From Gammaproteobacteria bacterium (GTDB lineage: Bacteria; Pseudomonadota; Gammaproteobacteria; UBA4575), in the NCBI GenBank assembly GCA_028279275.1, contig JANQOB010000018.1, positions 372,001-436,000 on the forward strand: a stretch of 64,000 bases of DNA. Reading direction: 5' to 3'. Shown piece after piece: positions 4,914-48,547 of this stretch. The stretch's first letter is position 1; the number at the start of each line of letters is the position of its first letter. The position numbers and the translations under genes are program-made. Below the pieces are notes generated by a model. That model was not told where the DNA came from and ran no database searches. It saw nothing but the letters and a program-made list of their open reading frames with translations.

Positions 4914-5312
4914 ATGTATAAATTAATACTACTATTATTAGTTGCTGCCTTAATGTTTGGTTGCAGCAAAGATGATGCTGAACATGCCGGTGAAGAGGCC
5001 GGTGAAGCCAAAGAACATGCGGGTGAAGAAGCTAAAGAGCACGCAGGTGAAGAGGCAAAAGAACATGCGGGTGAAGAAGCGGATTCTGCAGGTGGCCCTA
5101 AGCTTGAGCCACTACCAGATTGGGATTCTCTTCCTCCTATCGAAGAGGAAATGGCCGCTGAAGATGGCGAAACCATGATGGAGAAAGCTGAAGAGGTTGT
5201 AGAAAAAGCCAAAGAACATGCCGGTGATGCCGCTGAAAAAGCCAAAGAGCATGCGGGAGATGCGGCTGAAAAAGCCAAAGAACATGCCGGTGAAGCAGCT
5301 TCAGACGGCTGA
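4914..5312 (+). CDS. Lipoprotein with LEA-like EHAG repeats
   Basis: A 132-residue predicted lipoprotein: hydrophobic signal peptide (residues 3-16) with a lipobox ending FGC at Cys17. The rest is almost entirely Ala/Glu/Lys/His/Gly. Residues 33-56 are three perfect octamers, KEHAGEEA. Residues 97-129 are three 11-mers, EKAKEHAGDAA (the last with GEA). An acidic Pro-containing linker lies between them. The 11-mer closely resembles the group 3 LEA motif TAQAAKEKAGE, found in desiccation-protective amphipathic helices, and a disordered or helical envelope protein is inferred. The AGGAG ribosome binding site supports this ATG. The antisense frame is also open, but only because of the repeats. 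Exact function unknown. Confidence 0.8.
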   Translation: MYKLILLLLVAALMFGCSKDDAEHAGEEAGEAKEHAGEEAKEHAGEEAKEHAGEEADSAGGPKLEPLPDWDSLPPIEEEMAAEDGETMMEKAEEVVEKAKEHAGDAAEKAKEHAGDAAEKAKEHAGEAASDG

Positions 5313-8647: not shown

Positions 8648-9368
<721 letters not shown>

Positions 9369-12689: not shown

Positions 12690-14774
12690 TTGAGTAAAGA
12701 ATCTTTCCCAGAGGTTACTGCGCTAAAAGGTGTGGGGCCTAAAGTCGCTGAGCGCTTGCAACGAATACAGATCTATACCGTACAAGATTTGTTGTTTCAT
12801 TTGCCTATTCGCTATCAAGACCGCACACGCATCAGACCTGTTGCAGCACTTCGTGCAGGCGAAGAGTGTGTGGTGATAGGTAATATTGAACACAGTGAAG
12901 TAGTTTTTCGCAAACGACGTATGTTGTTGGTAAGTGTCGATGACGGTACCGGTAGGGTTTTACTAAGATTCTTTTACTTTAATAAAACCCAGCGTGAAAA
13001 CTTAAGCCGTGGCAGCAAAATAAGATGTTTTGGAGAAATTCGCCAAGGTATTAAAGGACCAGAAATGGTGCACCCTGAATATGAGCTACTACATCAGGAT
13101 GAACCGGCAAAAGTTGAAGATCATTTAACCCCAATTTATGCCACCACAGAAGGCTTGCACCAACTCAGTCTGCGTCGCTTAACTTCACAAGCTTTGCAGT
13201 GGATTAGTAAAAATAATGCACCACAATTAGATTTACTCCCCACTCCACCATTCATTGACGGGCAAACAGTTTGCATTGTAGAGGCCTTGAAGTTTGTACA
13301 TCGCCCTCCACCTGAAGCGGATACGGAGGCCCTAGCCGCTGGTAAACATGCCATGCAGCGTCGTCTATCTTTTGAAGAGCTGTTAGCTCAGCAGCTGAGT
13401 TTGTCCAAGTTAAGATTGCAGATGCAAAAACAACCTGCTATTCCTATTCAAGCGAATGGCCAACTTTATAAAAAATTATTGGATGGGCTTAAGTTTGATC
13501 TAACCCAAGCTCAACAGCGAGTTATCCAAACAGTATTCTCAGATTTGGGTAATGATTCTCCAATGTTGCGTTTAGTACAAGGGGATGTAGGGAGCGGTAA
13601 AACCTTGATTGCAATTGCAGCTTGTTTGCAGGTTATCGAAGCGGGTTATCAGGCCGTTGTTATGGCGCCGACGGAAATATTAGCTGAGCAGCATTTACGA
13701 AATTTTTCGCAATGGCTGGAGCCGTTGGGTGTACGCCTTGCTTGGTTGTCAGGAAAACTCACAGCAAGTAAAGCCAATGAAATGAAGGCGCTTATTGATA
13801 CAGGGACTGCAAACGCCATAGTAGGAACGCACGCATTATTTCAACAAGGTGTAGAGTTTAAAAATTTAGCCTTAGTGGTAATTGATGAACAGCATCGCTT
13901 TGGAGTACACCAACGATTGGCGTTGCGTGAAAAGGGTATTCAAGATGGTATGCATCCGCATCAACTTATAATGACGGCAACCCCTATTCCAAGGACGTTA
14001 GCTATGACGGCTTATGCAGATTTAGATTATTCGGTGATCGATGAATTACCTCCTGGAAGAAAACCCATCAGCACCATTGCCATCCCCATGGAACGTCGCC
14101 AAGAAGTAGTGGATCGAGTGGCCAATGCGTGTCGCAATGGACAGCAAGCTTATTGGGTATGCACCTTAGTGGAGGAGTCTGAAGCATTGCAGTGCCAAGC
14201 CGCAGAAGATGTGTTTCGTGAGCTGAGTCAGTTGTTAAAAGGTGTAAAAGTCGGTTTAGTGCATGGGCGCATGAAAGGCAAAGAAAAAGATTCCGTCATG
14301 CAGGATTTTTCTGCAAAAAAAATAGATTTGTTAATAGCCACGACAGTCATCGAAGTGGGAGTGGATGTGCCCAATGCCAGTTTAATGATTATTGAAAATG
14401 CTGAGCGCCTAGGGTTGGCGCAGTTGCACCAACTACGCGGGCGTGTAGGTAGAGGCACTGAAGAAAGCAGTTGTGTTTTAGTATTTGATCCTCCGCTTAC
14501 GGATAACGCAAAAACTCGTATTGATACCATGCGTAACACCAATGACGGTTTTAAAATTGCGCAAGTCGATTTAGAAATTCGCGGTCCTGGTGAAGTATTG
14601 GGTACCCGTCAAACCGGTATGCTTCAATTACGCATTGCCAACATCATGCGTGATCAAGACCTAATTCCTCTCGTTCAAGAAACTGCTAAACAACTGCTGG
14701 AAGAATATCCACATAACGTGGATGCAGTTATTCAGCGTTGGTTAGGAAAATCAATCGAGTTTGGACAGGTATGA
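12690..14774 (+). CDS. recG: ATP-dependent DNA helicase RecG
   Basis: 694-residue branch-migration helicase that remodels stalled forks and Holliday junctions. An N-terminal wedge/OB domain (about residues 1-230; LKGVGPKVAERLQ, then LLFHLPIRYQDRTR) precedes the helicase motor. Motor motifs are Walker A GDVGSGKTLIA, the DEQH box (VVIDEQHRFGVHQR), MTATPIPRTLAMT and the C-terminal QLRGRVGRGTEESSCVL. No ATG fits upstream, so the start is taken as TTG at 12690, giving MSKESFPEV; its ribosome binding site is weak. The stop codon is the first triplet of a dispersed hairpin repeat. Confidence 0.95.
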   Translation: MSKESFPEVTALKGVGPKVAERLQRIQIYTVQDLLFHLPIRYQDRTRIRPVAALRAGEECVVIGNIEHSEVVFRKRRMLLVSVDDGTGRVLLRFFYFNKTQRENLSRGSKIRCFGEIRQGIKGPEMVHPEYELLHQDEPAKVEDHLTPIYATTEGLHQLSLRRLTSQALQWISKNNAPQLDLLPTPPFIDGQTVCIVEALKFVHRPPPEADTEALAAGKHAMQRRLSFEELLAQQLSLSKLRLQMQKQPAIPIQANGQLYKKLLDGLKFDLTQAQQRVIQTVFSDLGNDSPMLRLVQGDVGSGKTLIAIAACLQVIEAGYQAVVMAPTEILAEQHLRNFSQWLEPLGVRLAWLSGKLTASKANEMKALIDTGTANAIVGTHALFQQGVEFKNLALVVIDEQHRFGVHQRLALREKGIQDGMHPHQLIMTATPIPRTLAMTAYADLDYSVIDELPPGRKPISTIAIPMERRQEVVDRVANACRNGQQAYWVCTLVEESEALQCQAAEDVFRELSQLLKGVKVGLVHGRMKGKEKDSVMQDFSAKKIDLLIATTVIEVGVDVPNASLMIIENAERLGLAQLHQLRGRVGRGTEESSCVLVFDPPLTDNAKTRIDTMRNTNDGFKIAQVDLEIRGPGEVLGTRQTGMLQLRIANIMRDQDLIPLVQETAKQLLEEYPHNVDAVIQRWLGKSIEFGQV

Positions 14775-14827
14775 GCACAGGGATGCGCGAATATAATGTC
14801 CATTAGGGATGATGCAACCGATTAAAG
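14772..14827 (+). repeat. Double-hairpin repeat element, copy 1 (after recG)
   Basis: 56 bp beginning with the recG TGA stop. Reverse-complemented, it matches the copy near 48.3 kb at 52 of 56 positions. In this orientation it has two short hairpins with GGGA (GNRA-type) loops: GCACA-GGGA-TGCGC and CATTA-GGGA-TGATG. There is no T-run after it, so it is not a standard intrinsic terminator. Confidence 0.88.
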
Positions 14828-14966
14828 ATTATAGATCTTGAAATTTCTGTTATTTGCCAAAACAGCCATACAAATACCTTATTTACTCAAATTTCATCTT
14901 GAAATCTAAAAAAATAACCCAATTTATTGTCTTATATACATACTATTTTAATTGACGGGATGGATT

Positions 14967-20131: not shown

Positions 20132-20163
20132 GAATGTCCGCTATGGATTGTTAGCAGACATTC
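20132..20163. repeat. AATGTC hairpin repeat, copy 2
   Basis: GAATGTCCGCTA and TAGCAGACATTC pair, with one mismatch, around an 8-nt loop. It lies upstream of the Fae-like gene and is related to the hairpin at 18738-18771. Confidence 0.65.
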
Positions 20164-20210
20164 TAAACTTTGTATTTTGAATTCCCAACCTGTGAGGCTT
20201 AAAGTTTTCC

Positions 20211-20270
20211 TAACTTTAATCTGAGCGCATCATCCATGATGCGTCTCATATGCGCACGTCCTGTGCTTAC
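20211..20270 (-). repeat. Double-hairpin repeat element, diverged copy (after the DUF1508 gene)
   Basis: Shares TAACTTTAATC, GCATCATCC-TGATG and GCGCA-TCC-TG with the copy near 48.3 kb, at roughly 70% identity by eye. On the minus strand it starts at the DUF1508 stop (TAAGCACAGG), just as the recG copy starts at TGAGCACAGG. Stems are GCATCAT / ATGATGC and GCAC / GTGC. Confidence 0.75.
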
Positions 20271-20599
20271 GATAAATCTTCTACTTTAGCCTTTGGTGCA
20301 TTCGTTTTAACGCTCTTAACACCGTTGATACATGCCGCTTCTGTTTTATACATTTGTGATGTGCCGATAACTTGTGAATTACCTGCCTTTAAGTTAAACA
20401 TGTGTTTGCCACTTTTTGATTTTTTAATTTCAAAGCGTTTTGCGTCTTTGGCATTTTTTTTGACTGACTCAATACCATTTTTAGCACTTGTTTTAGCTTT
20501 ATAACCTTCGCTTGCGAGGATATTTTCACCATTTCCAGACTTTAGTCTAAATCTAAATTCGCCTTTTTTGTCTTTATATAGTTCAAATTTAGCTGCCAT
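20267..20599 (-). CDS. DUF1508 (YegP-like) protein
   Basis: 110 residues made of two DUF1508 repeats. The first (about 4-50) reads FELYKDKKGEFRFRLKSGNG, then ILASEGYKAKTSAKNGIESV. The second (about 55-100) reads FEIKKSKSGKHMFNLKAGNS, then VIGTSQMYKTEAACINGVKS. This is the YegP architecture of small basic cytosolic proteins with unknown function, often abundant in stress conditions. The ATG has a GGAGTT ribosome binding site. The stop lies inside a dispersed hairpin repeat. Confidence 0.92.
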   Translation of the reverse strand: MAAKFELYKDKKGEFRFRLKSGNGENILASEGYKAKTSAKNGIESVKKNAKDAKRFEIKKSKSGKHMFNLKAGNSQVIGTSQMYKTEAACINGVKSVKTNAPKAKVEDLS

Positions 20600-48310: not shown

Positions 48311-48370
48311 TAACTTTAATCGGTTGCATCATCCCTGATGGATATCATATTCGCGCATCCCTGCGCTCAC
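48311..48370 (-). repeat. Double-hairpin repeat element, copy 3 (after the 2-TM gene)
   Basis: 52 of 56 positions match the recG copy (in reverse). On the minus strand it follows the stop of the small membrane-protein frame at 48371 by 0 bp and has stems GCGCA-GGGA-TGCGC and CATCA-GGGA-TGATG with GNRA-type GGGA loops. Confidence 0.88.
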
Positions 48371-48547
48371 TCACATGTCCCACCATGCAACGAGTAAGAA
48401 CCCTACAAAGAAAACCAATGTAACTAAAAAATATTTCGGTTTTCTATGTTTTTGTCGGATGGGGTCGAGTGCAACCCAGATGGATATCACTACGCCAATA
48501 AAACATATCAGCATGAGTAGTGATGGAATTTTTGACATATCAAACAT
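48371..48547 (-). CDS. Small two-helix membrane protein
   Basis: 58 residues from the ATG at 48547. Two predicted membrane segments (about 8-26 and 39-55), with the basic loop RQKHRKPK between. No ribosome binding site is evident and no family is recognised. Support comes from context: its stop is followed by the same hairpin repeat that abuts the stops of recG and the DUF1508 gene. Confidence 0.5.
   Translation of the reverse strand: MFDMSKIPSLLMLICFIGVVISIWVALDPIRQKHRKPKYFLVTLVFFVGFLLVAWWDM

Follow-up and report, generated by a model that had tools for sequence, protein, structure and literature searches.

Csr/Rsm regulation is generally attributed to a handful of dedicated sponge RNAs. 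The sponge sRNAs CsrB, RsmY and RsmZ are non-coding and carry repeated GGA-loop hairpins, and the known sites of CsrA, RsmA and RsmE lie mostly in 5′ UTRs, in early coding sequence or in dedicated sRNAs. According to PMC7652899, the CsrA/RsmA site obtained by SELEX is RUACARGGAUGU, with a six-nucleotide loop and AC/GU pairing, the RsmE structures contain an ANGGAN hexaloop, and one CsrA/RsmA dimer bridges sites 10-63 nt apart. The E. coli CsrA site from CLIP-seq is AuGGAug within a short stem-loop (PMC5694010). GGA-bearing RsmA-binding RNAs inside mRNA 3′ UTRs are also reported, namely RsmW in P. aeruginosa and RsmU in Xanthomonas. For RsmU, binding in vitro reportedly survived mutation of all four predicted GGA motifs, a result that warns against over-reading GGA alone.

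Here we describe a 58-nt element of an uncultured gammaproteobacterium, present in three copies in a 64,000-nucleotide stretch of its genome (hereafter, the window) and in at least 41 copies in the genome. It shares with CsrB, RsmY and RsmZ the repeated GGA-loop hairpins, the lack of coding sequence and a possible titration of CsrA, but there are two hairpins per copy, beside genes and in predicted mRNA tails, instead of one stand-alone sRNA gene. RsmW and RsmU are the nearest precedents, each a single locus, whereas the element forms a repeat family over dozens of genes. The TAACTGA repeats of marine Beggiatoaceae are likewise abundant and intergenic, and CsrA binding was considered for them; they lack GGA and canonical CsrA was judged unlikely by the author of that work, whereas the element has GGA in both loops. 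REP, REPIN and BIME repeats are also short, palindromic, extragenic, lineage-specific and numerous. Published descriptions give their unpaired end tag as GTAG or CGTC, and add that RAYT is not universal and that REPtrons can be missing; the element differs in its 5′ end (TGAG), its direct double hairpin and the lack of RAYT in element-rich genomes. In the window no Rfam model was matched at its gathering threshold, which rules out a known Rfam family, and the RsmZ and CsrB models (RF00166 in five genomes, RF00018 in three) gave nothing above cut-off, which rules out CsrB/RsmZ homology. A reading as a C4-like element proved wrong. We found no earlier description of a dispersed CsrA-site repeat in the open-access literature.

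Three window copies and two covarying hairpins

The first-pass annotation of the window had reported three double-hairpin copies at or beside stop codons, and that observation is confirmed. Copy 1 (14772-14829, + strand) begins within recG (12690-14774, +; Pfam RecG_wedge and RecG_dom3_C), its bases 1-3 (14772-14774) being the recG stop TGA. Copy 2 (20212-20269, −) likewise supplies, at 20267-20269, the stop TAA of a DUF1508 gene (20267-20599, −; ORF, PF07411). Copy 3 (48312-48369, −), at 88.3 bits the top-scoring copy of the genome, lies behind a small conserved ORF of 58 aa (48371-48547, −) whose TGA (48371-48373) ends one base before it. This ORF is real, because an orthologue with the same C-terminus, VAWWDM*, precedes the orthologous element (L041) in the relative G001. 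Covariance-model E-values for copies 1, 2 and 3 are 5.9e-20, 1.7e-13 and 3.1e-23. Between copies 1 and 3, 52 of the first 56 positions are identical, as already counted, and 53/58 overall; copy 2 aligns with copies 1 and 3 at 42/59 and 45/59 identities, about 71-76% where about 70% had been given.

In copy 1, hairpin 1 (GCACAGGGATGCGC, 14775-14788, alignment columns 4-17) has the loop AGGGAT with GGA at 14781-14783 and an A.C mismatch in its stem. The hairpin 2 region, with the core CATTAGGGATGATG, spans 14799-14816 (columns 28-45; GGA 14807-14809), and an A/T-rich tail, GATTAAA, is recognized by column conservation at 14820-14826. The hairpins of copy 2 are GCAC-AGGAC-GTGC (20254-20266; GGA 20259-20261) and, from its predicted fold, CGCATCA-TGGA-TGATGCG (20226-20243; GGA 20233-20235), and the whole element folds with a z of −3.63. 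Those of copy 3, also from its fold, are GCGCA-GGGA-TGCGC (48353-48366; GGA 48358-48360) and CATCA-GGGA-TGATG (48327-48340; GGA 48332-48334). The window also holds tandem repeats in two places: an ORF at 4914-5312 with 24-bp and 33-bp repeats (GAAGCAAAAGAACATGCGGGTGAA units), and a 50-bp repeat of 2.6 copies at 8655-8782, intergenic into the start of an ORF at 8745.

Across 121 distinct copies in the combined set, conservation was tabulated for the 59 that score at least 38 bits and are exactly 58 nt long, and the element consensus is TGAGCRCANGGATGYGCGAATATGAGTYGCATCANGGATGATGCATCAGATTAAA. Covariation was scored on 56 of these, leaving out L030 (window copy 2), L035 and L112, in which one-base indels shift the register. 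Standard pairs fill 83.8% of cells, compared with 74.6% in shuffles and at most 41.2% in slides. Cells with a double change number 59 against 17.5±3.6, a count reached in 0/500 shuffles, and the covariation score of 0.296 (0.138 in shuffles) is exceeded by none of the 500 shuffles and by no slide; related sequences can beat shuffles without any structure, and the slide control preserves relatedness. The two hairpins, which have different stems, both covarying, and stand in direct rather than inverted order, are thus supported by covariation.

Copy 1, with its stem-1 mismatch, has a predicted fold other than the double hairpin. By minimum-energy folding alone, 7 of 10 copies form both GGA-loop hairpins, and window copy 1 (z +0.66), L003 and L122 do not. 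Some copies fold into stable double hairpins (z −3.6 to −6.5), and in a CCATC subfamily AUCC is able to pair with GGA.

Loop pattern, spacing and the encoded CsrA

The loops had been described as GNRA tetraloops reading GGGA, and here the family departs from that account. Over the 59 ungapped copies, loop 1 has A in column 8 in 56, a free position in column 9 (T24, G23, A10, C2), then G10 in 57, G11 in 50 and A12 in 54; loop 2 has A34 in 47, a free column 35 (G30, T19, A10) and G36, G37 and A38 in 55 each. The free positions carry 0.34 and 0.54 bits and the GGA letters 1.31-1.75 bits. With the first loop base not fixed as G, a GNRA tetraloop is ruled out, and copy 2 itself has the loops AGGAC and TGGA; what is kept is A-N-GGA. 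Each element carries two A-N-GGA-N hexaloops in which the N is free. Closing pairs are standard between columns 7 and 14 in 50/56 copies and between columns 6 and 15 in 53/56, whereas columns 8 and 13, at the outer edge of the loop, pair in only 38/56, which often leaves an open hexaloop. When hairpins were found by pairing alone in the 121 copies, GGA fell in the loop of 97/113 hairpins 1 and 89/116 hairpins 2, compared with 24/696 control hairpins in flanks 400-1000 nt away.

The consensus GCACANGGATGTGC fits the published CsrA/RsmA site, with GGA in an ANGGAN loop, AC/GU closure of a six-nucleotide loop and a short stem with a closing C-G. The two GGA motifs (columns 12 and 36) are 23 nt apart, within bridging range, and judged by sequence the loops and this spacing fit the known site and dimer-bridging geometry. 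The difference from described CsrA, RsmA and RsmE hairpins is one of location, in that these predicted sites form a dispersed repeat behind stops. The loop identity, which the first-pass annotation did not contain, points to a function other than end protection.

The pattern has exceptions and company. In one orthologue, L098, loop 1 reads GTA and has lost its GGA, and some other copies are without GGA or fold poorly. GGA is also not more conserved than other parts of the 59 copies, namely an unpaired 5′ TGAG, a GAATA.GA spacer and an ATTAAA tail, and we know of no role of these three in CsrA binding. In the flanks, GGA-loop hairpins are modestly enriched within 120 nt upstream (8, against 1 with TCC) and stand at 3 vs 3 downstream. 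Among upstream trinucleotides GGA is weakly enriched (1.56-fold), less than TAG, GTG and GAG, and ANGGA occurs within 20 nt upstream in 17/118 copies, while the three bins that cover 20-80 nt have it in 11-13 each.

The home genome (G000) encodes one CsrA of 63 aa at G000:C11:269948-270103, beside lysC. Its residues 1-57 match solved CsrA chains, the best being 1vpz_A (1.2e-28, 49 of 56 aligned residues identical), which we take to be P. aeruginosa RsmA. L4 and R44, named as important in PMC4950607, are both kept. One csrA gene each was found in G000, G002, G003 and G007 and none in the drafts G001 and G015; the G001 contig breaks off about 150 nt past lysC, at the place of the csrA start in G003. 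The gene is equally present in family members that have no element, and thus csrA does not predict the element.

Distribution, placement and gain

With 13 copies as its seed, a covariance model found 41 copies at E≤0.02 in the 2.7-Mb home genome; 150 of 1414 first-look candidates were scored, so that there are at least 41. Another model, seeded with 56 copies, raised the number to 46 at E≤0.1. BLAST with copy 1 hit 12 places, at 79-94% identity to it, and the hairpin-1 pattern with up to three mismatches matched 34 times (0 in the backward control), 31 of these within whole elements. In a search of 55 genomes, home included, the same-genus genomes G001, G002 and G003 have 25, 12 and 23 copies; G007, of the same family but another genus, has 27, G015 has 3, G005, G013 and G034 have a single weak match each, and the remaining 46 have none. 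Among 274 genomes of the class, searched with strict filters and 20 candidates scored per genome, matches at 1e-4 occurred only in the home genome and in G005, of the same family. The RecG relatives, 74-89% identical, come from MAGs of uncultured Gammaproteobacteria, and two of these MAGs hold the element at E≤0.1 (SS_bin_92, 31 copies; L1_Bin_METABAT__212_1, 15) and are apparently G001 and G002, given identical contig positions; six others searched alongside hold none. The exact degenerate pattern had 0 matches among named genomes, a set that possibly leaves out the home genome or its near relatives. The element does not extend beyond a single family-level lineage of uncultured marine Gammaproteobacteria.

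Placement was compared with genes called by a simple codon-score script rather than curated annotation, using copies outside called genes and flanked by them on both sides (40 of 41 in G000). Of the 40 home-genome copies, 23 have their 5′ end within −5 to +30 nt of a stop on the same strand, an undercount by at least one because the script missed the 58-aa ORF before copy 3. When position and strand were drawn at random inside the same intergenic stretches, the mean was 7.66 and the maximum 16, with 0/2000 simulations reaching the observed value, and strand flips alone gave a mean of 12.1 and a maximum of 21. Only one home-genome copy has its 3′ end at an opposing gene's stop. Anchoring is weaker in G001 (6/19 against a null of 2.55; 40/2000 simulations) and within the null in G002 (1/4), G003 (4/23) and G007 (3/17), and most copies in G003 and G007 are tens to hundreds of nucleotides from stops. 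Gene context was tabulated for all copies of G000 and G003 and for 20/25 in G001, 10/12 in G002 and 23/27 in G007. Upstream of the element, the nearest gene shares its strand in 85 of the 117 tabulated copies (32/41, 16/20, 6/10, 14/23 and 17/23 in G000, G001, G002, G003 and G007). Sense orientation behind a gene, as first proposed, is thus the general tendency, whereas only the home genome, and perhaps G001, shows tight anchoring at stops.

In eight recG relatives (74-89% identical) the protein stops at the same residue, the stop codon is TAA or TAG, and no element follows. The home lineage therefore most likely acquired the recG copy, which brought its own TGA. Other sites are common to the home genome and G001, namely the 58-aa ORF, L024/L101, L026/L104, L039/L103 and L067/L098. 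At L039/L103 the stem changed from GCAT..ATGC to GCGC..GCGC with pairing kept, and at L067/L098 the GGA of loop 1 was lost. Host genes are diverse and share no theme (recG, uvrB, folE, moaA, amtB, ilvA and others by Pfam, run on 27 of 29 listed upstream proteins, two of 72-75 aa being omitted); a sponge would predict such a mix, and a regulon would not.

Other repeats adjoin the element. In two of the eight recG relatives (L126 and L127) a different hairpin repeat, AATGTCYGCTTTCGG...AGCGGACATT, follows the recG stop; it also lies at about 20136-20167 of the window and upstream of many G002, G003 and G007 copies. This second family likewise stands directly behind stops, and often immediately 5′ of the GGA element (CCGCTTTCGGCCAATAG joined to TGAGC). 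A longer module of type CCGCCATGGATGGTGGAAGTGCAGAAATTGCAGGAGCAAATTTCTGCCGGCCAATAG, whose own hairpins have ATGGAT and CAGGAG loops, is found 5′ of the element in L094, L099 and L100 (G001) and in L075 and L077 (G003). Fusion of an extra hairpin-1-like unit, GAGCRCANGGAWG, 5′ of the element gives a third ANGGA in L003, L017, L033 and L040 (G000) and in L110, L114 and L116 (G007). A G003 subfamily (L082, L085, L089, L091, L093) has a larger nested hairpin in place of hairpin 1, and most of its members carry GTGCAGGATGCAC and GACAGGATGTC or near variants, which are further AGGA loops. Also in G003, L083 and L084 (G003:C1:18396-18453 and 2632996-2633053), near both contig ends, are identical in element and 80-nt upstream flank, perhaps through assembly overlap or duplication.

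A predicted CsrA sponge and its alternatives

The most probable reading is a dispersed, lineage-specific element of 3′ UTRs that would bind CsrA and serve as a distributed sponge for it. Each copy of about 58 nt would place two CsrA/RsmA-type hairpins, in sense orientation, in a 3′ UTR or intercistronic stretch and would be transcribed within the host mRNA, where one CsrA dimer could bridge it. At least 41 copies, or about 80 sites per genome, would then jointly titrate CsrA in trans from mRNA 3′ ends, and in cis a bound dimer may affect 3′-end decay or readthrough. The element would work like a CsrB/RsmZ sponge split into two-hairpin pieces, though it is not a member of that family.

The chief alternative, compatible with the CsrA reading, is a mobile DNA repeat whose CsrA-like loops are incidental. 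In this account, which we think unlikely, a transposase reads the hairpins of a REP- or MITE-like repeat as single-stranded DNA and lands near stops, and GGA is kept by descent or for the transposase. The diversity of host genes, the close identity of the BLAST copies to copy 1, the recG relatives that end at the same residue without a copy, and the conserved unpaired TGAG, which recalls a REP tag, would all suit it. Yet Y1_Tnp (PF01797) is absent from the five element-rich genomes G000, G001, G002, G003 (complete) and G007, in a search positive in 9/29 genomes and in E. coli, which rules out a REP/RAYT system as currently mobilised. The hairpins are direct, and the tag is neither GTAG nor CGTC. 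Since nearly all hairpin-1 matches sit in whole elements, with ends parted by a gene not seen, an IS200-type element with separated ends is ruled out as well. Nor would this account explain why the N is free inside an otherwise fixed A-N-GGA, carried on two stems unrelated to each other. The original suggestion of a mobile element that targets stops thus stands as to dispersal and gain locus by locus, but strong targeting is seen only in the home genome and the REP/RAYT transposase is missing.

The other original suggestion, an element that defines or protects mRNA ends, seems to us improbable; the double hairpin would then act without CsrA, as a barrier to 3′ exonucleases or as a mark for RNase cleavage. 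Sense orientation after genes, the conserved single-stranded spacer with its AU-rich tail and the stable double hairpins of some copies argue for such 3′-end protection or processing, which needs stable stems; yet constraint falls on the loops, some stems are weak, and G003 and G007 copies mostly lie well away from stops. An mRNA-end-defining, terminator-like role was not borne out, in that no intrinsic terminator (a GC stem followed by a T run) occurs at the three window copies. Taken as a whole, the first interpretation is partly supported. Chance resemblance or ordinary intergenic sequence is refuted by the 41 covariance-model matches in one genome, the hairpin-1 pattern matches with none in the backward control, and a covariation score above all shuffles and slides.

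Under the CsrA-sponge reading, a further and more tentative step is possible. A self-spreading repeat that puts CsrA-docking hairpin pairs behind stops might turn dozens of unrelated mRNAs into one transcriptome-wide sponge, so that free CsrA would report the total transcription of ordinary genes, possibly in place of a dedicated CsrB/RsmZ RNA in these bacteria. If true, CsrA sites spread by a repeat in mRNA tails would be a different wiring of a global regulator. It would also connect short repeats between genes with post-transcriptional regulation, and a kind of repeat that is often regarded as a genomic parasite would gain a function.
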